A stretch of 64,000 bases of DNA from NCBI GenBank assembly GCA_018303405.1, contig JAGVYD010000012.1, forward strand, positions 1-64,000, read 5' to 3'. The stretch is from Candidatus Woesearchaeota archaeon (GTDB lineage: Archaea > Nanobdellota > Nanobdellia > Woesearchaeales > JABMPP01). Positions 35,208 through 64,000 of the stretch are shown here, one piece after another. The notes under the pieces were generated by a model. That model did no database searches and was not told the origin of the DNA. It saw only the letters and a program-made list of their open reading frames with translations. The translations under genes were made by a program, and so were the position numbers. The stretch's first letter is position 1. Every line of letters begins with the position of its first letter.

Positions 35208-35699
35208 ACATAATCTTACCGGTCTAGTTATAATCTTGCCAGTAAGCCAGTAATAATAACCTAACTATAATCTATAATATAACCAGAATAAGCTATAACC
35301 TGGAATAATCATAAACTATAATTACCTGTAAGCATTTCCGGCAGTTCTTTTCAGAAATTAGGTGGGCTGAGGGCATATTTGGGGCACATGACACATTTTC
35401 GGCATATTTTCATATACCAAATGGCAAAGCTATATAAACAAATTAACTAAACAATTGTAAAGTCAGACAGTTTCGCAATAAAAGGGTGAATAGGCGGGCC
35501 ATATATTTCAACTGGTTCAGACAGGTCTATGCCCTGCTAAATTTGAGTGAGTATGGGCCACTGTCCAGCCACTATCAGCCACTATGCACGAACCCGCAGT
35601 GTTGCGCTGTTTATGATTCACTGCTGATAATGTTTCACTGTTTCACATCAAAATCATAAATTGAAAGTTGGGGGCACAGAGTTGAAGAAGCCAAAAATC
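35208..35699. other. Long AT-rich spacer before the giant surface-protein locus
   Basis: No gene is visible. From 35208 to 35330 variants of CTATAATCT and CTATAACC recur (a degenerate repeat). A strong TATA-like AAGCTATATAAAC lies near 35426-35438, and CCACT-CAGC-type short repeats occur near 35560-35590. A promoter at 35430 would give a leader of over 200 bases for the SurA-like gene, long for this genome. Confidence 0.4.
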
Positions 35700-36500: not shown

Positions 36501-36555
36501 TCCGAATGCAGGGCATAATCCACAAGTTAAAAATCAAAAATCAAACTGGTCAAAA

Positions 36556-42500: not shown

Positions 42501-45500
42501 TTTGACAACCTATCTGAACAGCATTGACTCTTATGACGACCAGTCTGACAATGACCCCGTGGATTTCGTATCTGTTTACCTGCTTAGCCAGGATCACGGG
42601 CTTGCAACAGCGTCCAGCAGCATGTCTTACACAGATGCAGACTCTAAAGTTGGGCAGATCATTGACGCCCTTGCCGGCGTGAACGGATTGGAGCAGTCAA
42701 TTTTCCTAATCACTTCTGATCATGGTTTCGGCGATGTCTCTGCCAGCGCTGACAAGGTGATAAAGGATATCCACAGTGCAACAAAAACATTCACAACCGA
42801 CAACAATGGCTATCTTGCCTATTATTACTTGTCTGGCTCGCCTTCAAATGCTGATATTTCAGCAGCTGCCAAGGATATCCAGGATCATAATACAATAATC
42901 CCATCAAGCAATGTCCTGGGCAAGCTTGCAAATATATATGTCAAGCAGGGCCCATTGTACAAGAATTTTGTGGCTGGCGCAGTTGGCGGCAATTCCCCGG
43001 CCAAGTACCAAAACCTGTTCTCGCAATATTCAGGCGACATAATCATCACGCCCGATACATCCTTCTATTTTGCTGATGCGCAGCATAAGGCACTGGAAAA
43101 AACAACCCTGAATACTGTGCCAATAATAATCACTGGCAATTTCTATAAGTCCATTATTGAAGGCACTCTCCAGCTTACTGCTCCTGTTGAGCAGATAGAC
43201 ATAGCAAAAACCATCGCCTATATTGTGGGGGGGTCAGATATCGCGCAGGGCGTAGGAGGGGATGGCAAGAATATCTTCGATCCAGAATTCAGCGTAATTG
43301 TCGGCTCACCGGTCTTCGTCCACTTGTATGATTCTCAGGACAATCATGTCGGAATACTCCCCAGCGGGGAGCTTGAAGCCACAGTTCCATTGTCATCTTA
43401 TTCCTTTGACAACAAGACCAAAAAAATCAGGATTGATGTATTGCAAAAAGTTGACGATTATAAGATTCTGATTGATGCATTTGGCACTGGCAATTTTACC
43501 CTCAGGATACGGCAAAATCTCAGGAATGAAAGCTTTGCCATTGACTATCCAACCATGAATATCAAGCAAGGCTCAGTCGCAGTTGTTGACATGCTCAGCT
43601 CCCCTGGCTTCACAATGAATTTTGACTTTGACGGGGACAGCATTTTTGAGGCTGCTGTAAGCCCAAAATCCAATATCCAGTCGCAGTTGATTGACGGGAA
43701 TTTAATCATGGCCATTAACGCGTTGCAGGGCGACAAGCTGGACATTGACTTGCTGAGCCAGTATGGAATCAGGATACAGGGAACTGCGCTCAATGACATT
43801 GCCGATGGGACAATCATTTTTTCCAAAGCTCCCGATGAAGGGTATGGAGGATTTGGATTTTTGTCTGTCAATGAGCTTCTAAATGTCAACTCCCCTGATG
43901 GTGTAGAGGCACTGATAGGGGATTTGAACATTTCACTAAAGTACAACACGGCCCTGCTTGACCATGCTGTCAAGGGCTCTCTGCAATTATATAACATACA
44001 GGGAGGTGTCCCATCTGTTGTTCCAGGCGCCATCCTGAAAAGCAATTTCAACTTGTTCGAGAACATTGATTCAACAGGCCTGTATATAGTCGGAGCAGGT
44101 GACCAGTCGCCAATAATCCATAATGTGGAAGTCATGCCTGCGGTAAGCAATATTGCAAATTCCATGTTCCTTGTTGTTGCGAATATAACTGACAACCAGG
44201 CACTGCAGGGCGTGGTCGCAAAATACTTGGGCAATAATTACACAATGTCTTTCAACATCGGAAATGGATTATATGAAACTGCCCTTCAGGCCCCGCTGGC
44301 TGATGGGACTTATCCCATCTCTGTGACGGCAACTGACAATAACAACAATACTGCCATTGCTTCCTATTCGGCTTTCAGGCTTGACTCAACTCCTCCAACA
44401 GTCAGCATAATATCGCCGTCTGACAATTCTGTTATTAAGGATAATCTGGCATTTGTCAAATTCCAGGTCAATGAAAATGTGCTGAATGCCAGCTACATCC
44501 TGGACCAGGGCCCAGAAGCACAAGCGCCTCTTGAGGGATTTGACATAACCCCTGGATTCGGCATGCACAATCTGACGGTCAATGTTCTGGATCTTGCGCT
44601 AAATCCGGCGACTGACTCCATTTCATTTGAGATCCCAATTGACAATGTTGAGGTGTCAGAGCTGGAAATGCCTTACGCAGCCAAGCTCGGCCAGGAGATT
44701 GAAGTGGCCTTTGTTGCAAGAAACACCGGAAATGACTCAGAGTCCGTAACCTTCCAATTATTTGACAATGCAACAATTGTTGCCAGCCAGGCTCTGCTTA
44801 TTGCGAGCAATGAGACTGTTATTTCCAAGTTTGATTATGTGCCATCGCTTGGTGTGCACAATATCAGCGTAATGGCTTCGCCAGTGCCCGGAGAGACATA
44901 CCTGGCGGACAACAGGCTGGCGCAGCTGGTAAAGGTTTCAGACAAGTCGGTGCTCCTTGTGGTCTCCGATGGCGCCGATCCGGCAGGGTCCCAGGATTAT
45001 TTGCAGGCTATAGCCTCTGCAGGCTATGACAGCGTGTTTTTTGATACCGCATCAAGCATCATAACTGACAAGCTTGTCAATGATTTCAGGCTTGTAATCT
45101 GGTACACCGGCAATAGCCAATCTACGCTGAATGGGATAGAGGCAGAAATTTTGCAAAACTACATCCTAAATGGCGGCCGGCTCTTCCTGTCAGGATCAGA
45201 AATCGGCAAGGATATTTCTGGAACTGATTTCTACTCATCAGGATTAGGGGCAGCCTACACCAAGTCAGTTGACCAGCTTCAGAATATTGTCGGAATTTAC
45301 CAGGATCCGGTCAGCAGGGGGCTTCTTGCTGACATTGGAGAAGGCGGCGAGGAGATTGCCGCATCTCCGCTTGCAAACAATTCCCAGATCGAGACAGTGT
45401 TCACCTACATTGGCGCAAATGCCGCCGGGCTCAGGAAAATTGACCCAAACAGCAAGGTCGTATACTTTGCCTTTGCCTTTGAGGTAATTGCATCCGCAGA

Positions 45501-46835: not shown

Positions 46836-49800
46836 ATGAAAATCAAAAGACAAAAGGGATTGGAAAATCTTGCATGGGCACTGGCTGCTCTGCTTATCCT
46901 TTGTTCTTCATTAGCTGCAGCCCTGCCTGACCTCATTGTGGACTCTGTCTCATCTCCGTCGGTAATCAATACCAGCGCAAATGTCACAATAGAAGCCAAC
47001 ATAAGCAATATCGGCGATTCAAGTGCCAATAATTTCATGAATTTATTTATAGTTTCCCCGACTGTTACATCGCCTTATCTGTATGGACTGAGTGAACCGG
47101 CAGTGTATACTGGCTCTGTAGCTGACCAGCCAACTTCAGCCCTGGACTCCATGGGCAACCTGCACATGCTATGGATGGACAGGCGAACCGGAGATCTGGA
47201 AATATTCTACCGCATGGAAGATAAGAATGGAAATATCCTAATTGACGACACACAGCTCACATTTTCAGGCACAGATGCTGTCAGGCCATCAATTGCAGTT
47301 GACTCAAATGATAAATTGCACATAGCGTGGCAGGACAGGAGGCTCGGCTCACCTCAGATATTTTACAAGAAGCTTGACCCTTCGCTTGATGACCAGGATG
47401 GCAGTTCAGCCACTGCTGCTGCCATAACTGAAGTCAGTGATATGCACATATCAATCAATGCCCAGAATGAGCATGGCTCACAGGACTCACAGCCGGCTAT
47501 CGCAGTAGATAATACCCAGGATGTGCACATTGTCTGGGAAAGGACCGGCGACGAAAGCATCGGATATGCCAAGCTGGATAACGATGGGAATTTCATAATT
47601 ACCGATGTGAGAATTACAGAGCAATATGGGAATCTGTTCCATTCAGTCCCATCCATTGGCATTGACAGCAATGGCAATGTCCATATTGCATGGAATGAGG
47701 TGACCTTCACTTGCGATTATGAAGTATTTTACATGATGCTCAACGGCTCAAATGGGCAGCCATTAATCAATGCGAGCCAAGTCAGCATAGACGATTGCTA
47801 CGCATCATTTTGGCAGAAGCTGGCAGTGGACTCCTCAAATAATGTGCTCATTGTTGCGGCAGATGAAGGTGGATTGGAAACAAATATCTTCTTTACTGCT
47901 TTTAATCCATATGCATCGGGCCTTGATGGGCAGCCGGCAAACCTTACCCTCATTGCCTATTTTCCATTTGGCCCGCTTCTTCCGGATGATGGAATATACA
48001 GGACACAGCCTAACATGGCGCTTCTGAATGATAATGCACACATTGCATTCTATGATGAAACTACAGGCGATCAGGAATTGCACCTGGTTGTCGTGGGCCT
48101 TTATGGCAACCTTTTGACTCAGGACACACAAATGAGCAATGGCGCCTATGTCACGACATGGACGGGTTGGACTTTCCCTTCAATAGCAGTCAGCAATTCA
48201 GGTGATGGATACATCATGTGGACAGATTACAATCCTGGCCAATATTCTATTTTCAGGTCGACTTATAATTTGCCGCAGCCAAGGATATTTGACCAGCAGT
48301 TGGCAAGCGCAAATGCCGGGCAGGCAGTGAATGTGCCTGCCACCCTTGATACCTCTGGCCTGGTTGGCAGCTATAATTTATTTGTAATCACAGACTCAGC
48401 AAATTCCATCAGCGAGGAAAATGAAAGCAACAACAATCTTTTGTTCTCGTTGCCTGTTATTCAGGGCGCTGACCTAGTAATTGATGTGCTGACTGTTGTT
48501 CCAAATGAATCCATAATCTCGGGCGCTGGCATGGTTGTCAACGCAACTGTCAGGAATGCTGGAATTGTTGACTTGTCAGGCCCAATCTTGGTGGATTTCT
48601 TCGTGGATGACCTGTTTATCACTTCCACAATTGTTGATACTGTCCTGACATCAGGCTCTTCAATTATAATAGGCGGCATGTGGCAGGCCATACCTGGAGA
48701 CCATGTTATCAAGGCTGTTGTAAATCCATCCGGCTGGATCCCGGAACAGGACCTGGGCAATAATGAAAATTCAGTAGCGCTCCCATACATAATCGGACCG
48801 GACTTGATCCTGACAAACATTAGCTGGATGCCAAATGAGACAATTGCAGCGCTTGGCTCGGTAATAAATTTCAATATCACCATGATGAACATCGGGGGCT
48901 CTTCAGTAGAAAGTGGATTTTATGTGGCAGTGAGCCTGAATGATGTATTTGTGGGCAATGCGTATGTGCCGGCATCTGTTGGCAGCCCCATACTTCCAAA
49001 CGCGTCGCGATCAGTGATTTTTGCCTGGGCTGTCTCCGTGGGCAACAGGACAAATTTGACGGCAAATGTCGATGCGTATAATTACATTTTTGAGCAAAAT
49101 GAGAGCAATAACCTATTGAAAAATGAATTTCTGCTGCAGGTTGACTTGCCTGATGTAATTGTTTCAGATGTATTTGTTCAGCCCAGCCCTGCCAGGGTCG
49201 GCAACCTGCTGAATTTCACAGCAACGGTCACAAATATTGGCGCAGTCACCCTCTACCCTGATTATTATGTGCAATTCCTTGTGAACAATGCATTTGTGCA
49301 GAATGTTTACACCACCATCAACATCCCTCCTGGGGCTTCACTCAACATTTCAACAACAGTTAATTATGCCGGGATTTTAGGCTCGCATAATCTCACAGCG
49401 AACGCAGATGCATACAACTATTTCCCGGAACTGAATGAGCTGAACAACCTCCGGATGGAAGGATTCAATGTTTCATCGGGCCCAATAATTAATGGTGTTT
49501 CACACTATCCGTCTGCAGTTGCAGGCGGGCAGGGATTCAATGTAACTGCAAATGTGACTGATGACAAGGGTGTGGCTTCTGTCGAGATTTATTACAGATA
49601 TGATAGCGGTCCATTTGCAACAGGCAGCATGGCCTTGGCAGGAGGGGACATTTTCCAGGGTGCAGTCTCTGGGATGGCCAATATCACAAATATATCCTAT
49701 TTTGTGGCTGCAATAGACACTGATGGATTTTCAACCAATTCCACATTATTCACTGTTTTGATTGATTCAATGCCTCCTGGCTTCGGCAATATCCAAACCT

Positions 49801-52800
49801 CATTGCCATTGCCCAGTGCCTTGAAGCCTGCGAGGGTCACTGCAAGGATTCTCGACAAAAATGATATTGCCAGCACAATCCTCTCCTATAGCTATGATGG
49901 CATAACCTTCCAAAACATTTCCATGGCCAATACCCTGTCTGGCAAGCTGGACGTGTTGGTGCTCGGTGCAGACTCAGCTTCATACCTGAATGATGTGAAG
50001 AATAAGCTGCTCCAGTTCAATTTCATAAACAGCGTTGATGTCTTCCAGGCAAATCTTGACACGCCGAGCCTGGCCCTGCTGATGCAATATGATGCAGTCC
50101 TGACATGGACAAACAACTGCTATTTCAATAATGTGGCTTTGGGGGATGTCCTGGCTGCATATGTGGACAATGGTGGAGGAGTTGTGACAGGCGTGTTTGC
50201 ATATAGCGGCGGGTGCCAGGGGCCTGCTGGCAGGTTCTTGTCCAGCAATTACTTTGCAATCCCCTCAAGCACATCTTACACTTCAGGAAGCAGCACTTTC
50301 AATATCCTCAAGCCAGGCCACCAGATACTTGACGGATTTTCCGTGCTCAACGTGCTATATTATAGGGCGGCCAGCACAACTGTTGTAGCTGGCTCGGAAA
50401 GGGTACTTGACTGGAGCGATAGCAGGGCTTTGGTTGCGACCAGGGATATAGGGAGCGGAAGGGTGGTTGGCTTGGGAATCTGGCCCCCGTCGTCAGATGT
50501 CACTGGCTCAAGCTGGAGCTCAGCTACAGACGGTGATGTCCTGATGGCAAATTCATTGCTTTTCACCTCGCCAAAGAATTTGGTCTTCGCCGACATCCCT
50601 CCTGCAAATGTGTCAGGCAATGTAACATATTTCATCAGCTCAACTGATGCAGCCGGCAACACCAATGTGTCCCAGCTAAAAATATTTTCCACTGATGCAG
50701 AGATTCCAATGGTATCAAATATCAGTTTCATCCCCCCAAATCCAACTTTAAATGATATCATAAGTGTCAAGGCAACAGTGACTGACAACATTGGCCTGAA
50801 AAATGTCACAATCAATTACACAGTCGGCAGCCAGCGCGTGGCAAGGCAAATGCTGCCCGGAGTCCAGCCCAACACATTTGTAATAAACATCGGGCCAATT
50901 TTCTACAACGAAACAGAATTCATCATCCAGGCCGAGGACAATTCCACCAATCTCAACCGTTCCGATCCTATTTTAATCCCGATTGCCATTCCCCAGATGG
51001 GTTACAGCCCATCCTCTGTCAATTTTGCCCAGTCCGGCATCGGGGATTTGCTGTATGAGAACATCTCAATATATAACAATGGGACTGTTAACCTCACTGT
51101 GCGGATTTCATTGCCCTCTTTCCTGAAAAATTCATCTGTCGCCTGCGACAGGCCTTTTGTTGTGACAGGCGACAACAATGCCCTCATATTGATGGTGGAG
51201 AGCAACCAGGATGGCACATTCAGCCCCCAGCAGCAGGTTGCGGATGAGCCATGGTCCCAGCTGTGGGGATTGGGAATAGGGGATTTTGACAATGACAATG
51301 ACTGTGATTTTGTAACTGGCAGCAGCACCAATAATGTGTATTATTACAATAACAATGATAACAATGTATTCTCACCTGCGCAGGTGTTGAACACTTATAC
51401 ATCAAGCAGCTATGCAATGGATGTTGCAGTTGAAGATTATAACAATGACGGCAACCAGGATTTCATCCTTTCCGGAAATAACCAGCTCCTATACCTTTTC
51501 ACAGGGCTCGGGAACGGCTCTTTTGTAAAAACGCAGCTTGCAGATGCCATCACAAGCGCAAGGGGCAAGGACGCCGCTGATGTTGACAGCGACGGTAATA
51601 TGGACTTTGTCATTGGCACGAGCTCAACAAATCTGTACCTCTACAGGGGCAATGGGGACGGGACATTCAAGGTCAGGGAGACTATCACTCACCCGTACTC
51701 GGATGTTTATTCCGTCATCCTGGCTGACTTTGACAGCGATGACAGGATTGACATCATCTCACAAAGTTCCTCGAGCGGTGGAGAGCTCTACTTCCTGAAA
51801 GGCAACGGGGATGGGACATTCCAAACCGGAGTCTACACTGGTCAGGATATGAATAATTACCCTCCGGGAGATAATTTTGATTTTGACAATGATGGCAAGA
51901 TGGACCTGGCAATTGCCACATACACTTCAACATCGTTGAGATGGCTGAAGGGAAATGGCAATGCAACGTTTGTGTCGCCCGCAAATACCATCATTGGCCC
52001 GGCACTGGGCAATGGCAGGATGGGAGTGTCAGCACCGACACCAAGGAAATTCATGACAGTAAGGCTGGCCCCCAATTCAGGATATACCCTCCAAATCCAG
52101 CTGGACACAAGATTGCCTGGAAATTTCTCTGGAAATGTTACAGTTCGCTCGAATGATCCAATAAATCCAATTGCTGGAATTCCAGTTTCTGCTGAAATCA
52201 TCGACACCCTGCCTCCCTTAATAGAAAACATCACCAATGTCAGCGGAGTTCAGAATGCATTGCAATCCTTCAGGATAGAAGCAACGGTCAGTGATAATTC
52301 CCAGGTTAAAAATGTGACAATGCAATTCTTCAGGGATAATGTGACTCTGACTTATGTCATGGGCAGAAATATGGGCACAGGCCTTTCTGGCATCTACAAC
52401 GCAACTATACCATACTATAACATATCATCAAATTACACATATTTTATTGTAGCCACAGATGCCGGGAACCTCATGTCAGCTAGCGGTAATTATAGTTTCC
52501 AGACAACGACTCCTCCCGCCATATTCAATGTCAGCATAGACCCCCTTTTCCCTGGCCTGAATCAAAACATTGATGTGTCTGCAAATATTACCGACGATAA
52601 AGGTGTGCAGTCTGCAATTGTTTTCTACACAAAGCAGGTTGGCGCATTGAACCTGACAGGAATTATCAGCCATTGGGCGGCTGAAAATAATGCTGATGAC
52701 ACCGAAGGAAGCAATAATGGCGCATTGGTCAATGGCGCAGGCTTTGCGCAGGGCAAGTCCGGAGATGCATTCAGCTTTGACGGCATTGATGATTATGTTA

Positions 52801-55800
52801 ATGTTCCGCATGATGCCTCATTGAGCCCATCAACTGTGACAGTCATGGCATGGATTTATCCCACTACACTGTCCGGCAATCATAATGTGGTGTTCAAGGG
52901 CGACCATCAGTATTTGCTCCAAATCAGGAACAGCAATGTTCTCTTTGGCTCAAAAGACGCTTCAGGCGCCTACTCTGAATTCCAGGGAAGCCTGCCGCTC
53001 CAGGCAAATGCCTGGAACCATGTGGCAATAACCCATAATGGAAGCGTGAGGAGAATTTATGTAAATGGCGCGCTGGACCCAACAGCATCATCCCAGAATG
53101 GCCTTTACACCCTTGATGCCAATGCCCTTAAAATTGGCATCCACAATATACTGAGCGAGCCATTTAATGGCCTTATTGACGAAGTCAAAATTTATGGGAG
53201 ATCGCTGACCAATTCCGAAATAGCAGCAATGTACAATTCAGGCCAAAATGGGGTTTGCTATACTTTGAATGAATGCTTTGACTCTGTTGCAATGGGCAAT
53301 CTTGGTGATGCTTATAGCGCAACCATGCCCGGCGCGGCGCAGACATTAAGCATGCAATTTTACATCAATGCAGTTGACTTTGACGGATTTGCCACAAACT
53401 CCTCACGCTTCAATTTCACAATTGATGGCCAGGTGCCGGGCGTGGCAACAGTGCAGCTTGAGCCGGTTTATCCAAAGCACAGTGACAATGTTTCCGTTAC
53501 TGCAGATATTGAAGACAATGTGGGAGTCACTGGCGCAACGCTTTATTATAGCTATGACGGCCTGAACTTTGAAAGCATAGTGATGAATTCATCAGGGCAA
53601 AACAAGATAAATGTTCTTGTGCTCGGAGCCGATCCATCCAATTATCTAACTGATGTCAAGAATAAGCTCCTTCAATTCCCGTCTATTAACTCTGCTGATA
53701 CGTACGATGCAACAAGCGGAACTCCGACATTGGGACAGTTAATGGCATATGATGCAGTGATTACCTGGACGGACTATTGCTATTCCAACAGTGTTGCCAT
53801 GGGCAATGTCATGGCGGACTATGTGGACAGCGGAGGAGGCGTTGTGATGGGCGTATTTGCCTACAATGGCGGCTGCACAGGCCTTGAAGGAAGATTCCTT
53901 TCCAACAATTATTATGCCATCCCTTCAGGCACAGGTTCATCCAGCGGCGGCAGCCTTGTCAACATCCTGATACCAAATCATCCGATCTTCAGGGGATTCA
54001 ATTCCATCTATGTGGATTATTATCGCGCTGCCAGCACATCAGTTGTGGCTGGCTCTGAAAGGGTTGCAAATTGGAATGATGGAAGGGTTTTGGTGGCCAC
54101 CAGGCAGATTGGCCAGGGCCGGACAGTTGGGCTTGGATTCTGGCCGCCGTCATCAGATGTAACGGGCACAAGCTGGTCTTCATCTACGGATGGCGATGTG
54201 CTGATGGCAAATTCCCTGCTTTATGCAGCTGGTTCTGATGGATTTGCCGCCAAAATACCTGCGAGGAACAGCACAGGAAATGTTACCTTTTTTATCAATG
54301 CAACAGATTTGGCCGGCAATACAAATGTTTCAATATTTTATTATTACCTGGCAGATGGGGAATCTCCGACAATCAGCAATGTCACTTTCAATCCGGCAGT
54401 CCCAAGCGTAAATGATAAAATAAACATCACAGCTGTGATTGAGGATAACCAATTTGTCGGCTTGGCCTATCTCAGCTACTACAATGGAGTTAACAGGACT
54501 GTTGTTTACCTAAATGCCACTGGAAATAATACTTACTTTGTGCAGATAGGGCCATTGGCATTGAACCAGACTGATTTCTACCTGCTTGCCAGGGATCCGG
54601 CCGGGAATTCAGTCAATACAAGCCCCATGGTCATCACTTTCGCCACACCGCAGATTATCGTTGTGCCATTGGAAATAAATTTCTCCATAGTGGGCATTGG
54701 AAATGATGTCAGGGCCAATCTGTCCATAACGAATGACGGGGCAGCTGAATTGATTGCCAGCGTCAAGCTTCCTCATTTCCTGAACGCTTCGCAAAACACT
54801 TCGTATGTATCTTCATGCAGCAATGCTTTCATTGTCACCTCCGATGTCAGTGGCCTGCTCGCATATCTTAAAATCAATGGTGATGGGACTTTCGGGCCGC
54901 AGACCTCAATTGTCGACGAGCCATGGACCGGCGTTTGGGGAGTTGGAATCGCTGACTTTGACAATGACAATGATTGCGACTTTGTGACAGGGGGGAGCGA
55001 CAGCAATATCCATTACTACCAGCAAACCTCGCCCTTTGCCTTCGCGCCGCAGGTTTATTCAGGTACATATTCATCATCAGGATATGGCATGGACATAGCA
55101 GTGGCTGATTATGATGAGGATGGCAATGACGATTTTGTCATTTCCGGCAATGGTGGAAATGTATACCTTTTCAAGGGAACTGGCTCCGGGACTTTCACAA
55201 GCACCCTGCTGGAGGGATTGCCTGCAGCAGGACGTGGAAAAGACTCAGGCGATGTCAATAATGACGGCCACATTGACTTTGTCTCAGCAACCTCAGATTA
55301 TAATTTATGGCTTTACAAGGGAAAAGGTGACGGGACATTCTTTGCAAGGGAACTTGTCAGCCACCCGTATTATAATGTCTACAGCGTTGTCCTTGCTGAT
55401 TATGACAACGATGGGAATGTGGATATCATGGCTGAGAATTGGGGCGGCACAGGTGACTTATACTTCCATAAAGGAAACGGGGATGGCACTTTCCAGGCAG
55501 AAGTGTATTCAGGCATAAGCCTAAGTGATTATATCCCTGCGGAAAATTATGACTTTGACCAGGACGGAAATATGGACATTGTCATTTCCAGGTACAGCAA
55601 TTCTGATGTAAGGTGGTACAAAGGGGATGGGGACGGAACCTTCACTGCGCCGGCAAACACGCTGATAGGTGCGCCGCTGGGCAGTCAGCGAATGTCTGTC
55701 AGCACGACACCAATTGACACCGGATTTGAAATAATCATATCGCCCAATGAAACTATAACAATAGAATTAAGGCTCGATACCTCGCTGCCACAAATTTTCT

Positions 55801-58800
55801 CAGATTCAATACTGGTCAAATCCAATGATTTGGAAGCTCCGTCCATTGCAGTGCCTGTCTCGGCAACAGTTACAGATATTACACCTCCTGTTATCTCAAA
55901 TATCACTTTCAGTCCGGCAGAACCAAAGAATACCGACAGCCTGAACATCACAGCCGTTGTAACTGACAACAGCGCAGTCAATTTCGTGAGCCTGAATTTC
56001 TCCAAGAATGGGGAATATTTCCTGGCCAACATGACCCAGTTGTCAGGCAGCCTTTACAGTGCCAATATCCCATTGGGATTCAAGGGCATTTTTACCTTTG
56101 AGATTATAGCCTATGATGCCGGCAACAATCTGGCCGAAAGTGATGCATTCATTGTGCCTGTAATCGGGCCTGATGCAGTTGTGTCGCCATTGGAATGGGC
56201 CATAGGAGATGTAACAATTGACCAGTATGTTGCGCAGAATTTCACCCTGCTCAACAATGGCACATCCGTATTAAGCGGGCGCGCAGCCTTGCCGGGCTTT
56301 GTTGGTGTAAGCGGAAGCCATGATACTGAATGCGCAAATGACTTCATTGTCCAGACACACGATAATGGAAGGATAGAGATAGTGCCGGTGGAAAGCAATG
56401 GCTCATTTGCAGCGACGAGCTTTGTTGCCCAGGACTCCTCCACAATCCGCGGGGCTTCAGTTGGAGACTTCAATAGCGACGGGCACTGCGACATTTTAGC
56501 GGGCGGCAATGACGACAATGTCAGATATTATGAGAACAACCAACTCCTCCCGCTGACTGGAAGCAGTTTCAAGCCAGGGGTGATAATCGGCACCTACACT
56601 TCAAGCGGCTATGCCATGGACACAACTTCCGGCGATTTCAATGGAGACCTAAACACTGATTTCATTCTCAGTGGCAATAACCAGATTATGTATATTTTCA
56701 AGGGGCAGGGAGACGGCTCTTTTGTGAGGGTTCAATTGCCAAATGCCCCGACAACCGCAAGAGGCAAGGATTCAGGCGATATAAACAATGACGGCAAGCT
56801 TGATTTCATACTTTCCACATCCTCAAGCAATCTTTATGCTTATCTGGGATACGGCAATGGCTCGTTTGCGCCGCCATTGACAATTGCCTATCCTTATACT
56901 GACCTCTACGGCCTGGCCGTGGCGGATTTTGACCAGGATGGCTTTGCTGATATCATAACAACAGATTCAGGCGGCGGAGGCGCGCTTTATTTCCTGAAGG
57001 GAATTGGGAATGGCACTTTCCAGGCCAGAATTTATGCAGGAATCGATGTGAACAACAACAATGCAATGGACAATGCGCTCATAAACAATGATAGCTATCA
57101 GGATTTGGTGATTGTGACCTATTCGAGCCAGACCACGCTCCTGCTCCTGGGCAATGGCGATGGCACTTTTACAAATGCCGGCGTTATCAGCCCTGCCAAT
57201 GGTCAATACAGGCTTGGCGTCGGGGCGCCGGTGACTTCCCCTTCAATGCCGTTTAACCTCACCATTAATTCATCGGTCACATTTGAAGCTGTGCTTGATA
57301 CATCCATGCCATTGGATCTTTCTGGCAGGATAATTGCAGTCAGCTCAAATGACCCGGAAAATAGATTAATAGCCATAAACCTCAGCGGAAGGATACTCGA
57401 TGTTGTGCCGCCTACAATCCATAATATGACTGAGTTCCAGGCTGTCACAAGCACAGGGCAGCCGATACCAATCACTGCTGTTGTTTCGGATGACACACTC
57501 ATATCCGCAGTGCAGCTGGTTTACAGCGCAAACAATGGCCCTCTCCAATTTTTGGCAATGAACCGGACAGCTGGCAATGCAGCATTCGGCTCCTACAACG
57601 CCACAATCCCGGCAACCGGAGTCCCGCAAAACATATCCTATTTTGTCAGGGCAGGGGACATTTCGAATAACAGCGCAGATTCCGCAGTCTTCAGCTATAG
57701 GACAACTTATCCACCGACTATAATAAATGTCACTACGCAGCCTTTGAATCCCAAAAACAATACAGAAGTGAATTTTGTTGCGGCAATAACTGATGACAGT
57801 TATGTTGTCTCAGCTGCCTTGTCGTTGGGCAATGAGGACACAGAAAAAAATCTCGCGCTTGCAAGCAATGGGGCAACGGCAATTGCAACCAGCACATACA
57901 GTGCGCAGTTTGCAGCCTCAATGGCTATTGATGGCTTCCTGGAGGATGGCTCGACACAAAACCACTATTGGCTGACCTCTGATGGCGTGGCTGGCGCGAC
58001 TTTAACAGTGGACCTTGGCGCAACACACATTATCGATCGCATTATTGTTTATAACATAAGAAATGCCGGCTATTATGACAGGTCAGCCAGGGATTACAGG
58101 CTGGGTGTCTCAACCGACGGCATCAATTTCGACATTGTCCAGGATTCTGTCATGGCGCAGAATGACATTGTCAGCCCTTATGCAACAATATTTAGCCCAA
58201 TGCCTGCCAGGTATGTCCGCTTCTATGAGGACTCTTATTTTGGCAATGGCGGCGGGCTTGCCGAAATCCAGGTTTTCAGCTCGCCAAATTTCGTGGACTA
58301 TCCAATGACCGACCTTGGAAATGGATTGTTTGAAATAAACATAACTCCAATGGGCCCGACCTCAACCTTCTTTTATTACGCCAAGGCAACAGACAGCGAT
58401 GGCATAAGCTCATCTTCTGCCAAATTCTCATTCGTGGCAGACGGCGAAACGCCAACTTTGCAATTGCTTCAGGCTGACCCGGCTTACCCTGTCACAGGCA
58501 GCAGTGTGAAAATTGGCGCTGTGCTTTTGGATAATGTTGAGATTGTGAACCCCCGAATATCTTACTCTTTCGACAATGTCACATTCTTCAACGATACATT
58601 AAGCCTCGACTATAAGTTCCGCGGAGGCATGCCTAATCTTGCGGATAGTGCGAAATCAAGGATAATAGCCGGAAGCACAGATGGCGTTTTCCATATACTT
58701 GACAGCTCCACTTTGACAAGGGAATTCTTCAGCGCCAATTACGGCTCCAACAGCGGGATTGGCCTTGCCCTGGCCGATGTCAACAATGACGGGGAGCCTG

Positions 58801-61800
58801 AGCTCATAACCTCAGATTACACTGCAGGCAACAGCATATACTTCAGGGTATTCAAATTTTCCAATAACACCTACACCTTAAACTCTTCAGCAGGCAGGGT
58901 GTCAGAAGGCAATGTGTTTGCGCTCGCCACAGGCGATGTTGACAGCGACGGCATCGAGGAAATCCTGGTGCCTGATGCAACAGATGGCAAAGTCTACATC
59001 TTTGGCTGGAATGGCAATGCATATGCCCTTGAGACCAGTTTTGCCGTTGCAGATACGCCAAGGACAATAGAGGTGTTTGATGCAGACAACGACAATGTCG
59101 CTGACATAATAACCGGAGATTTCAGTGCCACAGGCAGGATGGTCATTTATGGCTTTAACGGGTTCTTTTACGTGGAAAAATACAGCAGCGGTGACCTGGG
59201 AACCAGCATTGCAGGAATCACCCATGGCGATTATGACCATGATGGAATTGATGAGATTGCCGTAGGGTCCCAGGACTTCTTCCATATTTTCAAGTATGAA
59301 GGTGGCACCTTCTCTGAAGTTTTCAGAAGTGCGGACCTGGGCACAACAATTACGCCGTCAGACAGTGCAGACTGGGACAATGACGGAAACATTGAACTGC
59401 TTGTTGGAAGGGATGCGACCGGAAGCCTGCTGGTTTACCAGTTCTCAAATAATAGCGAGTATGTCCTGGAATATTCCGCAAGTGCCAGCACAGACCTCAA
59501 TTCACCTAAATTTGCCGATGTATTTGGCGATGGCCAATATGAAATCGTGGCTGGCGCGGGCGACGGCATAGTGAGGGTTTATTCTGCAAATTCAGGCTCC
59601 CCGATAATGGCCAGCCAGGACCTTGGCACAAATGTTGGCGGTTACCTTGGAGATGCGCTTTTGGTAACGACGCCGCAAAGGCATGTAAAATCCTTGTCTA
59701 CAGTGAACCAGACAGGGGTTTATGTTTCTATAACTGCCAATGATCTCGCGGGCAACGAGCTTGTCTCTCCATACTCCCAGTTCAGGTTTGACAGCCAGGA
59801 CCCAAACATTGATTCCTTTACAACTTTCAGCAATAATGTGAATTACCTGGCGCCGGCATCCATTTATGCAGGAGTCAGCGATGACATTGGCGTGGCTGAC
59901 GCGATTTTGTACTACAATCTGGAGAATCAGTCCGAAAAAAGCCTTTTCATGACAAGGATTTCTGGCACCTCAGCCAATGGCACATATTTTGCCAGGATTC
60001 CAGCTACAGGAAATTCAACATCTGTCACCTATTGGATTCAGGCAATTGACATGTCTGGCAAAAAGTCAGTCACGCAGAACAGCACTTACTATGCATCCAG
60101 CTCGCCGGTCATTGCAAACATTACACAGGTTCCTGCCTATCCGGGCCTGGACATGGTCATAAATGTCAGTGCAATCATTACAGATGACACATCTGTAAGC
60201 TCAGCGCTCTTGTCATACTCATCAAATGCAACTGGCGCTTTCAATCTCAGCATGATTCCATCCGGAAGCCTCTACAGGGCCGCAATCCCTGCCTCCGGCA
60301 CAACTGCAACCATCACTTACAGGATTATCGCAAATGACACTGACGGATTTATTGCGATGTCTGATTTGAGAATGGCAATAGCCGATGGCGCGCTTCCAAC
60401 ATTCAGCCCGCCAACAAAGAGGCCGTCAACACCAACCGCTCTTGATGCCACAAATGTCTCTATTATTGTCAGCGACAATGTGGGAATTTCCTCGGCCAGG
60501 CTGTATTATTCCTTTAACAGCAGTGCATTTGTGCCAGTTGCAACCACGGCAAAAGCAGCAAATTACAGCGGCTTGATTCCAGCTCCTGGCGCCTCGGCCC
60601 TTGTGAGATTCCTTTTCGAGGCTGTTGACTTCAGCGGCAACAGGGTAAATTCAAGCATGTACAATTATACAGCCGGCAATGTTGATTTCAGGATTACTGG
60701 AATTGTTTTCACAGGAGGGGCATATGAAGGCGGCTCTGGAATTGCCAATGTCTCAATACAAAATATTGGCACCGACGGAGTCACAACACCTGTTTCAGTC
60801 TCGGCTTACCGGGACGCTTTATTCCTCGGCAAGAATTATGTCGCTGGCTTGGCCGCAGGAGAGACCAAGTACACCTCATTCAGTGTGAATTTCCCCACAG
60901 GAATGTTTGGAAACAGGACATTGAATGCAACAGCTGATCCAGATAATGCTTATAGTGAGAGCATGGAATCAAACAATGCTTTCCTAGCCATTGTGGAAGT
61001 TACCCGGGATGTCTCTCCGCCAGTGTTCAATAGCATCGTGCAATCGCCGGCAAATGCCACAGAGAATTCCGGGACCGTGCAAATCCTCATCAATGTCACT
61101 GATAATGAGACAGGGATAAATGTTGCAAGCGGCAGGCTAAATTACATTATCGGCGGAATTGAAAGGTCTGTAAGCCTGACAAACTTCAATGGATTGCTGA
61201 GAGGATTGGTGAACGAGAACCTCAACCTGTTGCAGGGCCTAATCCTGGAATACAATGTAACAATCAATGACCAGGCAGGCAATGGCGCTTATACAGCCAC
61301 TTACAGCGACCTCATTGACATCATTAACGATGCACCGCAGGTTTCAATCACATCACCGACAGCATCGTCAACCTTTGACGCAGGCGGGCCAGTTAATTGG
61401 ACAATAACAGATGAAGATAGCAATGCCTTCAATTCAACAATCTATCTTGAAAAACCGTATGTCACTTTGCAGCCTGGCTGGAACAGACTTTTGATAAAGG
61501 TTGACCAGGGTTCTGGCGCATGGGGATATTATGTAAGGCTGGCACAGCTTGACAACACGCCCTACAACCTAAGCCTGGGCTTTGATGGCGTATCCGCCAG
61601 TGCAACACCTGATGCAAGCGGGTTTATCAGGGATTGGCTGCTTGCAGGCCCGTATGACAATGCCGGGGACGCCAAATTTGACGTGGACTATGTTAATGAG
61701 AGCACGATTATGCCAGCAGCCGGACTGAACAGTTCAGGCAAAACATGGTTTGTGCGCCAGGATCCGGATGCGTACATTGACTTGTACAGCATTTTTACAT

Positions 61801-64000
61801 CTGCAAGTGACCAGATTGCTTATGGATTCATCTATATATACTCTGAGAATCTGAGCCTGGCCAGGATTAAAATCGGCAGTGACGATGGCGTGCAGCTTTA
61901 CCTGAATGGTGAAAGGATTTTGTACAACCATGTCCACAGGGGCGCGTCGCCTGACCAGGATATTGCCAAAGAACTGGAATTGATCGGTTCGACCAATGAC
62001 AACAGTTTCCTGTTTGACACGCAAGCTGTTCTTGATGAAAGATACAGGGTTGCTGTGGATGTCAGCGATTCACTGGCAACCACAAGGGCTTATTCACCCA
62101 CTTTCACAATTGACCATACTGCCCCATACAGTGTTACATTGGTGTCGCCGATAGGCGGCGCCCATTTGAATGCGCAAAGCATATCATTCGCATCAGTAGC
62201 AGTGGATAATGTCAATCCCACTTTATTGTGCAATCTCACAATCGATGGAGCAGTTGCAGCAACAGATTATTCTGTGCCAAACGGCCTTACTGGATATTCA
62301 CCTGCCATCAACGGGCTCTCCAACGGATATCATGAATGGAATGTGACCTGCAAGGATGGGACAGGCCAGTCTGTGAGCAGCGAAACCAGCAGCTTCCTCA
62401 TTGACAGGATACCGCCGCAGGTCAATCTTATCGCTCCGGAAGAGAACTATACAAATACAAATTCCGAAGACGACATAAATTTCACATTCGAAGTGTTCGA
62501 TGAAAGCAGCCCATATCTAAATTGCTACCTTTCAGTCGCTGGAGCTTATACTTTCAACATCAATGCGACATCCGGGGCCAACAGCAGCAAGCTGGTTGAA
62601 AATATCAGTGTTGGGTCTTACTTGTGGAATGCTTACTGTTATGATATTGCAGGCAATTCCAATACAACTGGCTTGAGGAATTTCACAATCTTTGGAGATG
62701 TGTCAGTAGACAGTGTCTCATTTAATCCCGCAATACCATTGCAGGGGACATCAACCCAGGTTAAGGTCGCAGTGAGCAATCTTGGCAATTCAACTGCAAG
62801 GCCCATACTCAGGGCGTATAATGAATTTGGAACCCAGTTAGCCATGACACAATTGAATCTGCCTGTGCTGCCCGTGGGGTCCGGAGGACCAGCCTCAGTC
62901 AATTGGACTTTCTCATGGAATCTTGCAGGGCTTGGTTATGGCGCCCATAACATAACAATCATTGCTGATATGCCCTATGACACAGATACGGCAAACAATG
63001 CATTTATCGAAACACTGTCAATAGAGCAGGATACAATCGGGCCGGATATTTCACCTATTGCAATCACTCCTGCAAATGTCACAGAAAACACCAACGCCGT
63101 GACTTTTTCGACCACAATTACGGATAACGCAGTGGGTATCGCGACCTCCAGTGTCTACCTGAATGTTTCAGCCGGCAATCTGTCAATCGGCAAGTTCATG
63201 ACTGGCTCTTCAACATTTACTGCCATCATCACATCAGCTGAGTTTGACTGGGATGCGTCCCAGGGGGAAACATTTGCTGCATTTGTAACTGCGCAGGACA
63301 TAGCAAACAACACTGGCTACTCGCCAATCAAGCTCGAGTATGTCGATATAATCAACGATCCGCCAGTTGTCAAGCTAAATTCGCCAAAGGCAGCTGATAC
63401 GCCAACAGGCGCCTATCCAATCATGTTCAGTGTGGATAATGACGGGGAGGGTTATGCCAATTCAAGTGTCTATTATTGGCAGCCTTTCTCATATGCAACA
63501 CCATATGAAGTGAACAGCAGCCTGTATTTCTCACAGGGCCAGTGGAATTTGATTGGAACAATCAATACACTTTCCACGCTGCAGAATGAAACAATCAATG
63601 AAACCCAGCTATGGGGCACATCGTTGCTGAATGGCTATAGCAAGATAAGGATTGTGGCAACAGATGGAACTTATCAGGCCATAAATCTCAGCGATGCGTT
63701 TTCAATTGATAATACGCCGCCAACTGCATACTTTGAAAATGCGCTCGGTGTCGGAAGCAGGATAATTGGCCCGAATGGAAGGGTATTCGGATTTGCAAAT
63801 GGCACATTCAGCAACATTGCAGGCGTGGCCATGAATGACTCCAGGTTCCACATAACATTGTCGCCCGCCGGGCTGAGACTGGGGCAATTTGAATTTGAGT
63901 CAAATGAGACAATCAGCAGCAATCTGGATTTGAGGCTTACGGTTATAGACAGTGCAGGATTTGCCTTTGACTTGGCCGATTCATTCAGCATTGACAGCAC
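46836..64000 (+). CDS. Giant secreted multidomain surface protein (partial, no stop in window)
   Basis: One frame stays open from ATG 46836 to the window edge, over 5,720 codons; the frame matches at 50.1, 55.1, 60.0 and 64.0 kb. After a signal peptide (KIKRQKGLENLAWALAALLI..., cut near SLAAA) come: BNR-like propeller (47085-48260); CARDB repeats (48270-49470); Ig-like; glutamine-amidotransferase-like copy A (49935-50590); FG-GAP propeller A (51130-52010); LamG (52655-53260); amidotransferase-like copy B (53600-54235); FG-GAP B (54790-55710) and C (56320-57210); discoidin (57860-58290); FG-GAP-like D (58600-59690); Ig repeats; CARDB (60690-61000); PA14-like (61480-62080); CARDB (62700-63020). 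Ca-binding DxDxDG loops recur. It is probably a cell-surface adhesin or S-layer-attached protein, 59 bases after the protease gene. Confidence 0.9.
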   Translation, partial: MKIKRQKGLENLAWALAALLILCSSLAAALPDLIVDSVSSPSVINTSANVTIEANISNIGDSSANNFMNLFIVSPTVTSPYLYGLSEPAVYTGSVADQPTSALDSMGNLHMLWMDRRTGDLEIFYRMEDKNGNILIDDTQLTFSGTDAVRPSIAVDSNDKLHIAWQDRRLGSPQIFYKKLDPSLDDQDGSSATAAAITEVSDMHISINAQNEHGSQDSQPAIAVDNTQDVHIVWERTGDESIGYAKLDNDGNFIITDVRITEQYGNLFHSVPSIGIDSNGNVHIAWNEVTFTCDYEVFYMMLNGSNGQPLINASQVSIDDCYASFWQKLAVDSSNNVLIVAADEGGLETNIFFTAFNPYASGLDGQPANLTLIAYFPFGPLLPDDGIYRTQPNMALLNDNAHIAFYDETTGDQELHLVVVGLYGNLLTQDTQMSNGAYVTTWTGWTFPSIAVSNSGDGYIMWTDYNPGQYSIFRSTYNLPQPRIFDQQLASANAGQAVNVPATLDTSGLVGSYNLFVITDSANSISEENESNNNLLFSLPVIQGADLVIDVLTVVPNESIISGAGMVVNATVRNAGIVDLSGPILVDFFVDDLFITSTIVDTVLTSGSSIIIGGMWQAIPGDHVIKAVVNPSGWIPEQDLGNNENSVALPYIIGPDLILTNISWMPNETIAALGSVINFNITMMNIGGSSVESGFYVAVSLNDVFVGNAYVPASVGSPILPNASRSVIFAWAVSVGNRTNLTANVDAYNYIFEQNESNNLLKNEFLLQVDLPDVIVSDVFVQPSPARVGNLLNFTATVTNIGAVTLYPDYYVQFLVNNAFVQNVYTTINIPPGASLNISTTVNYAGILGSHNLTANADAYNYFPELNELNNLRMEGFNVSSGPIINGVSHYPSAVAGGQGFNVTANVTDDKGVASVEIYYRYDSGPFATGSMALAGGDIFQGAVSGMANITNISYFVAAIDTDGFSTNSTLFTVLIDSMPPGFGNIQTSLPLPSALKPARVTARILDKNDIASTILSYSYDGITFQNISMANTLSGKLDVLVLGADSASYLNDVKNKLLQFNFINSVDVFQANLDTPSLALLMQYDAVLTWTNNCYFNNVALGDVLAAYVDNGGGVVTGVFAYSGGCQGPAGRFLSSNYFAIPSSTSYTSGSSTFNILKPGHQILDGFSVLNVLYYRAASTTVVAGSERVLDWSDSRALVATRDIGSGRVVGLGIWPPSSDVTGSSWSSATDGDVLMANSLLFTSPKNLVFADIPPANVSGNVTYFISSTDAAGNTNVSQLKIFSTDAEIPMVSNISFIPPNPTLNDIISVKATVTDNIGLKNVTINYTVGSQRVARQMLPGVQPNTFVINIGPIFYNETEFIIQAEDNSTNLNRSDPILIPIAIPQMGYSPSSVNFAQSGIGDLLYENISIYNNGTVNLTVRISLPSFLKNSSVACDRPFVVTGDNNALILMVESNQDGTFSPQQQVADEPWSQLWGLGIGDFDNDNDCDFVTGSSTNNVYYYNNNDNNVFSPAQVLNTYTSSSYAMDVAVEDYNNDGNQDFILSGNNQLLYLFTGLGNGSFVKTQLADAITSARGKDAADVDSDGNMDFVIGTSSTNLYLYRGNGDGTFKVRETITHPYSDVYSVILADFDSDDRIDIISQSSSSGGELYFLKGNGDGTFQTGVYTGQDMNNYPPGDNFDFDNDGKMDLAIATYTSTSLRWLKGNGNATFVSPANTIIGPALGNGRMGVSAPTPRKFMTVRLAPNSGYTLQIQLDTRLPGNFSGNVTVRSNDPINPIAGIPVSAEIIDTLPPLIENITNVSGVQNALQSFRIEATVSDNSQVKNVTMQFFRDNVTLTYVMGRNMGTGLSGIYNATIPYYNISSNYTYFIVATDAGNLMSASGNYSFQTTTPPAIFNVSIDPLFPGLNQNIDVSANITDDKGVQSAIVFYTKQVGALNLTGIISHWAAENNADDTEGSNNGALVNGAGFAQGKSGDAFSFDGIDDYVNVPHDASLSPSTVTVMAWIYPTTLSGNHNVVFKGDHQYLLQIRNSNVLFGSKDASGAYSEFQGSLPLQANAWNHVAITHNGSVRRIYVNGALDPTASSQNGLYTLDANALKIGIHNILSEPFNGLIDEVKIYGRSLTNSEIAAMYNSGQNGVCYTLNECFDSVAMGNLGDAYSATMPGAAQTLSMQFYINAVDFDGFATNSSRFNFTIDGQVPGVATVQLEPVYPKHSDNVSVTADIEDNVGVTGATLYYSYDGLNFESIVMNSSGQNKINVLVLGADPSNYLTDVKNKLLQFPSINSADTYDATSGTPTLGQLMAYDAVITWTDYCYSNSVAMGNVMADYVDSGGGVVMGVFAYNGGCTGLEGRFLSNNYYAIPSGTGSSSGGSLVNILIPNHPIFRGFNSIYVDYYRAASTSVVAGSERVANWNDGRVLVATRQIGQGRTVGLGFWPPSSDVTGTSWSSSTDGDVLMANSLLYAAGSDGFAAKIPARNSTGNVTFFINATDLAGNTNVSIFYYYLADGESPTISNVTFNPAVPSVNDKINITAVIEDNQFVGLAYLSYYNGVNRTVVYLNATGNNTYFVQIGPLALNQTDFYLLARDPAGNSVNTSPMVITFATPQIIVVPLEINFSIVGIGNDVRANLSITNDGAAELIASVKLPHFLNASQNTSYVSSCSNAFIVTSDVSGLLAYLKINGDGTFGPQTSIVDEPWTGVWGVGIADFDNDNDCDFVTGGSDSNIHYYQQTSPFAFAPQVYSGTYSSSGYGMDIAVADYDEDGNDDFVISGNGGNVYLFKGTGSGTFTSTLLEGLPAAGRGKDSGDVNNDGHIDFVSATSDYNLWLYKGKGDGTFFARELVSHPYYNVYSVVLADYDNDGNVDIMAENWGGTGDLYFHKGNGDGTFQAEVYSGISLSDYIPAENYDFDQDGNMDIVISRYSNSDVRWYKGDGDGTFTAPANTLIGAPLGSQRMSVSTTPIDTGFEIIISPNETITIELRLDTSLPQIFSDSILVKSNDLEAPSIAVPVSATVTDITPPVISNITFSPAEPKNTDSLNITAVVTDNSAVNFVSLNFSKNGEYFLANMTQLSGSLYSANIPLGFKGIFTFEIIAYDAGNNLAESDAFIVPVIGPDAVVSPLEWAIGDVTIDQYVAQNFTLLNNGTSVLSGRAALPGFVGVSGSHDTECANDFIVQTHDNGRIEIVPVESNGSFAATSFVAQDSSTIRGASVGDFNSDGHCDILAGGNDDNVRYYENNQLLPLTGSSFKPGVIIGTYTSSGYAMDTTSGDFNGDLNTDFILSGNNQIMYIFKGQGDGSFVRVQLPNAPTTARGKDSGDINNDGKLDFILSTSSSNLYAYLGYGNGSFAPPLTIAYPYTDLYGLAVADFDQDGFADIITTDSGGGGALYFLKGIGNGTFQARIYAGIDVNNNNAMDNALINNDSYQDLVIVTYSSQTTLLLLGNGDGTFTNAGVISPANGQYRLGVGAPVTSPSMPFNLTINSSVTFEAVLDTSMPLDLSGRIIAVSSNDPENRLIAINLSGRILDVVPPTIHNMTEFQAVTSTGQPIPITAVVSDDTLISAVQLVYSANNGPLQFLAMNRTAGNAAFGSYNATIPATGVPQNISYFVRAGDISNNSADSAVFSYRTTYPPTIINVTTQPLNPKNNTEVNFVAAITDDSYVVSAALSLGNEDTEKNLALASNGATAIATSTYSAQFAASMAIDGFLEDGSTQNHYWLTSDGVAGATLTVDLGATHIIDRIIVYNIRNAGYYDRSARDYRLGVSTDGINFDIVQDSVMAQNDIVSPYATIFSPMPARYVRFYEDSYFGNGGGLAEIQVFSSPNFVDYPMTDLGNGLFEINITPMGPTSTFFYYAKATDSDGISSSSAKFSFVADGETPTLQLLQADPAYPVTGSSVKIGAVLLDNVEIVNPRISYSFDNVTFFNDTLSLDYKFRGGMPNLADSAKSRIIAGSTDGVFHILDSSTLTREFFSANYGSNSGIGLALADVNNDGEPELITSDYTAGNSIYFRVFKFSNNTYTLNSSAGRVSEGNVFALATGDVDSDGIEEILVPDATDGKVYIFGWNGNAYALETSFAVADTPRTIEVFDADNDNVADIITGDFSATGRMVIYGFNGFFYVEKYSSGDLGTSIAGITHGDYDHDGIDEIAVGSQDFFHIFKYEGGTFSEVFRSADLGTTITPSDSADWDNDGNIELLVGRDATGSLLVYQFSNNSEYVLEYSASASTDLNSPKFADVFGDGQYEIVAGAGDGIVRVYSANSGSPIMASQDLGTNVGGYLGDALLVTTPQRHVKSLSTVNQTGVYVSITANDLAGNELVSPYSQFRFDSQDPNIDSFTTFSNNVNYLAPASIYAGVSDDIGVADAILYYNLENQSEKSLFMTRISGTSANGTYFARIPATGNSTSVTYWIQAIDMSGKKSVTQNSTYYASSSPVIANITQVPAYPGLDMVINVSAIITDDTSVSSALLSYSSNATGAFNLSMIPSGSLYRAAIPASGTTATITYRIIANDTDGFIAMSDLRMAIADGALPTFSPPTKRPSTPTALDATNVSIIVSDNVGISSARLYYSFNSSAFVPVATTAKAANYSGLIPAPGASALVRFLFEAVDFSGNRVNSSMYNYTAGNVDFRITGIVFTGGAYEGGSGIANVSIQNIGTDGVTTPVSVSAYRDALFLGKNYVAGLAAGETKYTSFSVNFPTGMFGNRTLNATADPDNAYSESMESNNAFLAIVEVTRDVSPPVFNSIVQSPANATENSGTVQILINVTDNETGINVASGRLNYIIGGIERSVSLTNFNGLLRGLVNENLNLLQGLILEYNVTINDQAGNGAYTATYSDLIDIINDAPQVSITSPTASSTFDAGGPVNWTITDEDSNAFNSTIYLEKPYVTLQPGWNRLLIKVDQGSGAWGYYVRLAQLDNTPYNLSLGFDGVSASATPDASGFIRDWLLAGPYDNAGDAKFDVDYVNESTIMPAAGLNSSGKTWFVRQDPDAYIDLYSIFTSASDQIAYGFIYIYSENLSLARIKIGSDDGVQLYLNGERILYNHVHRGASPDQDIAKELELIGSTNDNSFLFDTQAVLDERYRVAVDVSDSLATTRAYSPTFTIDHTAPYSVTLVSPIGGAHLNAQSISFASVAVDNVNPTLLCNLTIDGAVAATDYSVPNGLTGYSPAINGLSNGYHEWNVTCKDGTGQSVSSETSSFLIDRIPPQVNLIAPEENYTNTNSEDDINFTFEVFDESSPYLNCYLSVAGAYTFNINATSGANSSKLVENISVGSYLWNAYCYDIAGNSNTTGLRNFTIFGDVSVDSVSFNPAIPLQGTSTQVKVAVSNLGNSTARPILRAYNEFGTQLAMTQLNLPVLPVGSGGPASVNWTFSWNLAGLGYGAHNITIIADMPYDTDTANNAFIETLSIEQDTIGPDISPIAITPANVTENTNAVTFSTTITDNAVGIATSSVYLNVSAGNLSIGKFMTGSSTFTAIITSAEFDWDASQGETFAAFVTAQDIANNTGYSPIKLEYVDIINDPPVVKLNSPKAADTPTGAYPIMFSVDNDGEGYANSSVYYWQPFSYATPYEVNSSLYFSQGQWNLIGTINTLSTLQNETINETQLWGTSLLNGYSKIRIVATDGTYQAINLSDAFSIDNTPPTAYFENALGVGSRIIGPNGRVFGFANGTFSNIAGVAMNDSRFHITLSPAGLRLGQFEFESNETISSNLDLRLTVIDSAGFAFDLADSFSIDS
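49935..55710 (+). repeat. Internal tandem duplication (about 3.66 kb period) within the giant gene
   Basis: The block amidotransferase-like domain, Ig linker, FG-GAP propeller occurs twice: LDVLVLGAD at 49945 versus INVLVLGAD near 53602, and GIGDFDNDNDCDF near 51275 versus GIADFDNDNDCDF near 54945, a shift of about 3,660-3,670 bases. A LamG domain lies between the blocks. A third propeller at 56320-57210 follows without its amidotransferase partner. Confidence 0.8.

Follow-up and report, generated by a model that had tools for sequence, protein, structure and literature searches.

The window analysed here, bases 1-64000 of the 90,051-bp contig C12 from a 1.6-Mb, 95% complete genome, ends inside a gene that encodes a protein of 10,670 amino acids, which we call the mosaic giant. 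We propose, with a probability of about 0.6, that this protein is a secreted, probably N-glycosylated surface scaffold or adhesin and that it is one of two giants encoded in tandem. The following genes of the window carry the argument:

35661-36500, + strand: short SurA_N-like protein, an extracytoplasmic chaperone candidate, directly upstream of the upstream giant
36466-46776, + strand: upstream giant, 3,436 amino acids, with signal peptide, S8 subtilase, type I phosphodiesterase and Ig/cadherin repeats
46836-64000, + strand: mosaic giant gene, in-window part (residues 1-5721 of 10,670), from the open frame and extension of the contig

The first-pass annotation had described a single frame of over 17 kb, coding for more than 5,720 residues and continuing past the window; the extended contig confirmed it and gave a protein almost twice the length visible there. 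One continuous frame runs from an ATG at 46836 on the forward strand through 5,721 open codons up to the window edge and, in the contig sequence past 64000, on to a stop at C12:78848 (L002:18848), 14,848 bases beyond the window. The gene of 32,013 bp makes up 2.0% of the genome (2.6% together with the upstream giant) and encodes a very acidic protein of 1,155 kDa with a pI of 4.2. At the given composition, a stop-free frame of such length would arise by chance with a probability of ~10^-250, and when the gene was cut into 22 consecutive blocks of 500 codons, frame 1 came first on codon preference in every one. Contig C12 contains no N bases, and within the gene there is no repeated 30-mer that could collapse an assembly. 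A core of ~5,000 residues is collinear and free of stops in five other genomes; over ~4,600 to 4,900 aligned residues the mosaic giant is about 38-46% identical to these other giants, and such collinearity is a strong argument against misassembly or frameshift. On the evidence of the contig extension, codon preference, lack of repeats and collinear orthologues, we rejected misassembly, a frameshift and a stop just past the window edge. The expectation that the protein would be among the longest of archaea also held: it exceeds halomucin (9,159 amino acids; PMC4378361), a nanohaloarchaeal giant of 9,409 amino acids (PMC10266531) and the published records for cultivated archaea.

Downstream of the gene lies a frame that resembles a divergent DNA polymerase of family B (C12:80002-81978, L003:2-1978; Pfam E 4e-11). 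Elsewhere in the window, at 8604-8767, 15244-15407 and 33356-33520, we observed an element of ~164 bp with 15-bp terminal inverted repeats (GGCCTTGTCCGAAAA). The 1.6-Mb genome holds 36 matches to it in total, ~25 of them near-full-length copies at 88-100% identity; these repeats and copies mark it as a MITE-like element that has been active recently in this DPANN archaeon.

Within the window, the mosaic giant could be divided as follows:

46836-46928, + strand: Sec-type signal peptide (MKIKRQKGLENLAWALAALLILCSSLAAALP), with a hydropathy peak at residues 8-26 and a cleavage site judged by eye
46926-49451, + strand: CARDB domains (Pfam)
49959-50837, + strand: 293-residue module, copy 1, previously called amidotransferase-like; 59% identical to copy 2
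51156-51971, + strand: first block of FG-GAP (integrin-alpha-like) propeller repeats (Pfam)
52779-53225, + strand: Laminin_G_3 (concanavalin-like) domain, residues 1982-2130 (Pfam, E 2e-31)
53619-54497, + strand: 293-residue module, copy 2; 59% identical to copy 1
near 54828-55649, 56343-57170 and 58743-59585, + strand: further FG-GAP blocks (Pfam)
57882-58238, + strand: F5/8 type C (discoidin) domain, residues 3683-3801 (Pfam, E 2.5e-14)
61938-64000, + strand: beginning of the conserved core of ~5,000 residues (residues ~5035/5195 to ~10190), which runs past the window (collinear alignments)

The first CARDB domain is apparently split by a BNR/propeller-like insert at residues ~85-480, for which the match is a weak one (BNR_4, E 0.002). 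Further CARDB and FG-GAP domains follow in the C-terminal half, together with cadherin/He_PIG/Big_9 repeats (Pfam), a long stretch free of Pfam assignments (residues ~7620-9560) and a terminal domain that, judged by eye, resembles DNRLRE. The first-pass list of modules stood for the CARDB, FG-GAP propeller, Laminin_G_3, F5/8C and cadherin-type domains, all of them found by Pfam. Two of its names could not be confirmed: sequence comparison gave no support for a PA14-like identity of residues 5050-5190 or for a glutamine-amidotransferase-like identity of the 293-residue module, which matched nothing in PDB or Pfam. A three-copy repeat at residues ~8055-8625 matched GH2-family enzymes over their N-terminal sugar-binding domain in 10 of 10 PDB matches (best E 6e-4); Pfam gave no matching assignment, so this likeness is marginal and of a single family. 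Searches of the mosaic giant in four pieces against Pfam and NCBIfam detected no hydrolase domain, and AlphaFold models of two ~1,000-residue core segments from three-row alignments were of very low confidence (mean pLDDT 33 and 31). The signal peptide contains no canonical archaeal lipobox, hydropathy revealed no other clear membrane span, and the last 40 residues are hydrophilic. The extended contig, which supplied the stop, did not supply a C-terminal anchor, as neither a transmembrane segment nor a sorting tag was seen there.

The mosaic giant contains 282 NxS/T sequons, against 145 ± 10.6 in shuffled sequence, and sequons were about twofold or more above shuffles in all five orthologues tested, the mosaic giant included. 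No excess was seen in the 14 cytosolic proteins from the window that served as control: their 5,552 amino acids contained 23 sequons where 24 were expected. In the alignment of the core, 17 columns carry a sequon in five of five orthologues, and the reversed motif S/TxN occupies no such column. This pattern is that of an N-glycosylated extracellular protein, and the mosaic giant is probably glycosylated. Together, the Sec-type signal, the sequons and the modules support the earlier view of a secreted archaeal protein of surface type.

Half of the protein, residues ~5195-10190, is collinear with giants of other Woesearchaeota, of one Aenigmatarchaeota and of one Candidatus Methanoperedens. Profile searches were needed to find them, a plain search with residues 7700-9200 in 59 relatives and the genome contigs having returned no real homologue. 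Beyond the order, the core profile matched nothing else strongly in 371 genomes sampled from the phylum; among named genomes, it identified an Aenigmatarchaeota contig (JACQIG010000080.1, genome G353) and a contig of Candidatus Methanoperedens STD1_19 (JAQUNZ010000004.1, G354). A scan of named genomes by short peptide patterns gave no Asgard match. Viral contigs, phages and plasmids contained no match to the core, and a phage, plasmid or viral origin was set aside on that ground. One alignment joins residues 5035-10191 to the 7,879-residue giant of G165 (contig JACPMZ010000007.1, same order as the source genome) at 45% identity over ~5,200 columns. Identity of the core was 37% over ~4,850 columns with G072, whose giant measures 8,681 amino acids when two contigs with an exact 46-residue overlap are joined, 41% with the Aenigmatarchaeota giant and 37.5% with that of Methanoperedens; between the latter two, identity is 52%. 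Collinearity does not extend to the N-terminal half, which is the end that differs most between orthologues. The G072 orthologue starts with a lipobox (LLTGC). In the Aenigmatarchaeota genome, the gene after the giant (G353:C48, L104:11034-15659) encodes 1,541 amino acids with Amidase_2 and Kelch domains, and it and the giant both end in PVYR(D/E)L, perhaps a common C-terminal tag.

The source genome, that of a Woesearchaeota-type DPANN archaeon, is the sole member of its family among the relatives compared, and giants are common in its order. CARDB-bearing frames in 238 order genomes reached 8,809, 7,881, 7,579 and 7,165 amino acids, and the mosaic giant was the longest among those listed. 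Most of the order giants opened belong to a different group, Family A, which includes one in the source genome itself (C18, L019:4958-18619, 4,553 amino acids), one of 8,788 amino acids (G180:C8) and others. Family A giants are likewise CARDB/Ig proteins rich in sequons and often precede a second surface gene for a secreted protein of ~720-750 amino acids, but they have a different shared C terminus (SDGG..YNGTQDIVFITQ...YDFEIRVPA..R...) and lack the core of the mosaic giant.

Several of these features would also suit a structural coat, a glycocalyx- or S-layer-like sheath in the manner of halomucin that shields the cell and seeks no partner. The low pI, the wealth of sequons, the lack of a recognised catalytic core and of an anchor of its own would agree with such a sheath, as would an orthologue in Methanoperedens, which is not a DPANN archaeon and whose protein has a membrane span near the C terminus. 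However, the lectin-type modules (LamG, F5/8C) lie at the most variable end, which is the pattern expected of recognition heads, and the profile found a strong full-length core in just 4 of 353 order genomes (the source genome, G165, G072 and G318), so the protein is no general coat. We consider a coat rather doubtful and favour a surface scaffold or adhesin.

The upstream giant (36466-46776), which the first-pass annotation left unremarked, is separated from the mosaic giant by 59 bp. A second giant also stands immediately upstream in G072 and Methanoperedens, and in G165 two genes lie between; in G318 an upstream-type C terminus and then the start of another gene share one short contig, and the core is on a different one. 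The pair measures 3,436 + 10,670 amino acids in the source genome and 2,355 + 7,205 in Methanoperedens. Upstream orthologues are 45% (G165) and 31% (G072) identical, and the C-terminal part 37% (G318) and, over 398 residues, 41% (Methanoperedens). Five upstream-giant tails end in ACDPxxDxxC plus one or two residues (ACDPELDPLCA in the source genome, ACDPDLDPGCT, ACDPDLDPECVP, ACDPDVDPSCIP and ACDPGVDAGCN), and by sequence this tail resembles an Ig-type repeat that was cut short, with its two cysteines ahead of the stop. In G165 the genes between the giants (C8 216294-221359, L025) encode a 1,514-residue FG-GAP-repeat protein and a 171-residue lipoprotein, a possible anchor for the pair. The genes preceding the tandem in the source genome are LemA, TPM and the SurA_N-like gene, in whose product no PPIase domain was found. 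A similar SurA_N-like gene occupies the same place in G165 and G072. We rejected in part the idea that it is specific to a cassette, as SurA_N proteins are present in 179 of 241 order genomes.

The S8 subtilase of the upstream giant retains its triad motifs (D490/H543/S858). One could accordingly imagine an extracellular degradative platform, on which both giants work together to break down proteins, nucleotides or polymers, with the mosaic giant as the substrate-binding scaffold. Intact S8 and phosphodiesterase motifs in the source genome, and largely intact ones in G165, would fit, as would the sugar-binding-like repeats of the core and the Amidase_2 domain encoded after the Aenigmatarchaeota giant. 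Yet the enzymes decay where the core does not: the S8 histidine motif is lost in G072, and the Methanoperedens upstream giant has neither enzyme. Together with the mosaic giant's want of any detected hydrolase domain, this makes a degradative platform unlikely.

The Methanoperedens copy allowed the insertion site to be compared. Next to its tandem lies a gene that we take to encode ribosomal protein eS1; its counterparts in 14 close relatives match it at 82-95% identity, so this contig does not come from a contaminating DPANN genome. A search of 150 genomes around STD1_19 found the core in STD1_19 alone. The sequences that flank its 29-kb tandem are ~31 bp apart in G539 and ~670 bp apart in G533. 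On the right, the breakpoint falls at the 3' end of a tRNA-Leu(CAA) gene that G539, G533 and G531 have in the same position; this gene lies upstream of the tandem, whose upstream neighbours are the tRNA and the presumed eS1 gene. The opposite edge has a stretch of 21 nt that, allowing for gaps, is similar to the end of the tRNA. Among contig windows this likeness is in the top 1-5%, and as an att-like match it is no more than suggestive. Gain in STD1_19 and loss in the relatives are both possible, and the two genes come or go together.

Over three archaeal phyla the distribution of the core is patchy, and divergence within phyla is similar to that between them, which indicates horizontal transfer. 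In a tree of the six cores, a single Woesearchaeota group was not rejected (p-AU 0.31); transfer of the core is likely, although this six-core tree alone gives no proof. The tetranucleotide and GC composition of the giants differs strongly from that of housekeeping genes, a difference that protein composition explains equally well and that we discarded as evidence of transfer.

Such movement raises the question of whether the tandem is cargo without benefit to the cell, in effect a tRNA-targeting element resembling the Asgard aloposons, which carry tandem giants at tRNA genes (PMC8813620). The empty site in relatives, the start of the tandem at the 3' end of tRNA-Leu(CAA) and the gapped tRNA-like stretch are what such an element might leave. 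Neither an integrase nor a ParA/MinD gene was recognised beside the copies examined, however, and no tRNA adjoins the tandem or giant copies in the source genome, G165, G072 and G353; the att-like match also reaches no higher rank among contig windows than the top 1-5%. The in-frame conservation of ~5,000 residues and of sequons speaks for a functional protein. Mobile cargo of this kind appears quite unlikely.

We therefore return to the surface scaffold or adhesin and outline how it might work. The signal peptide would send the mosaic giant out through Sec, and AglB-type glycosylation would decorate it. The core, with its CARDB domains, FG-GAP propellers, GH2-type sugar-binding-like domains and cadherin-like repeats, would form a long stalk of roughly 100 domains, possibly hundreds of nanometres in length, from which the variable N-terminal half (LamG, F5/8C, propellers) could bind neighbouring cells or particles through their glycans or proteins. 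The upstream giant would act at the same surface, its conserved tail serving as a docking or anchoring element, and the short SurA-like protein would aid folding of the giants outside the membrane. The pair may move between archaea as a unit. Adhesion is what we infer from these modules; host contact, which the first-pass annotation had favoured, is plausible, since lectin-type modules and sequons fit it. The source archaeon is small and probably symbiotic. Methanoperedens also has an orthologue, which shows that the core occurs beyond host-dependent DPANN archaea, so host attachment is not the common denominator. Against a scaffold or adhesin, the mosaic giant has no recognised anchor of its own, many of its modules also occur in enzymes and structural envelope proteins, and the upstream giant does not keep its enzymatic head in every genome. 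More speculatively, and with considerable doubt, the tandem could be a transferable two-giant surface cassette common to ultra-small DPANN and a methane-oxidising archaeon, which inserts as a unit (at least once by tRNA-Leu) and builds a glycoprotein contact arm, and the contact could favour the spread of the cassette itself between partners.

How DPANN archaea recognise and hold their partners is an open question, and for one cultured DPANN archaeon the proteins of its attachment organelle are stated to be unknown (PMC11420986). The mosaic giant offers a candidate surface protein defined by sequence: its core is conserved and its head variable, it has a partner gene, and Ca. Methanoperedens carries an orthologue. 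Its occurrence in distant archaea, a methane eater among them, makes the core look like a transferable module for cell-surface contact and not a one-off. As DPANN and Methanoperedens share so large a core and the site is empty in close relatives, horizontal movement of giant genes also becomes directly testable.

Giant archaeal surface proteins as such are known; as far as the open-access literature was searched, this core and tandem are undescribed. The fam00969 murein-transglycosylase proteins of Woese- and Pacearchaeota are large and extracellular, up to 3,000 amino acids (PMC8204110), and like the mosaic giant are DPANN proteins supposed to contact other cells, but they have a lytic transglycosylase domain, for which Pfam and NCBIfam gave no match here. 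Halomucin of Haloquadratum walsbyi, a mucin-like protein related to desiccation protection (PMC4378361), is similar as a very large secreted archaeal protein, and the signal peptide and sequon density of the mosaic giant fit this likeness; the mosaic of propeller, CARDB and cadherin-like domains sets it apart from halomucin as described. Otus and Ephialtes are the tandem giants of Heimdallarchaeum aloposons, elements that use tRNAs downstream of the giants as integration sites and carry four genes upstream, among them one for a MinD/ParA ATPase (PMC8813620). Tandem giant genes, patchy occurrence and, in the Methanoperedens copy only, association with a tRNA are shared; in contrast, our giants have no tRNA downstream, that of Methanoperedens lies upstream, and the upstream gene set with its ATPase was not seen beside the tandem of the source genome or of Methanoperedens.

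The SPEARE and other nanohaloarchaeal giants come nearest in setting, being DPANN-encoded, secreted proteins of ~6,000-9,400 amino acids with LamG and Ig-like domains and a supposed role in host contact (PMC6642349, PMC10266531). A host-invasion or secretion device of this type would be in keeping with the DPANN genome, the subtilase next door and the giant secreted LamG protein, which shares Laminin-G and other adhesion domains (F5/8C, FG-GAP, CARDB) with published SPEARE proteins (PMC6642349). The conserved part of SPEARE proteins, however, is a C-terminal membrane span with a cytosolic VirB4/TraG-like ATPase domain, formerly called a restriction domain (PMC6642349, PMC10266531). In the mosaic giant, the N-terminal signal is the only clear span by hydropathy, and Pfam and NCBIfam searches in four pieces found no VirB4/TraG-type ATPase or restriction-type domain. 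The absent ATPase domain disfavours a SPEARE-type device, which we judge very unlikely; the mosaic giant is distinguished by another core of ~5,000 residues and by its tandem giant partner.
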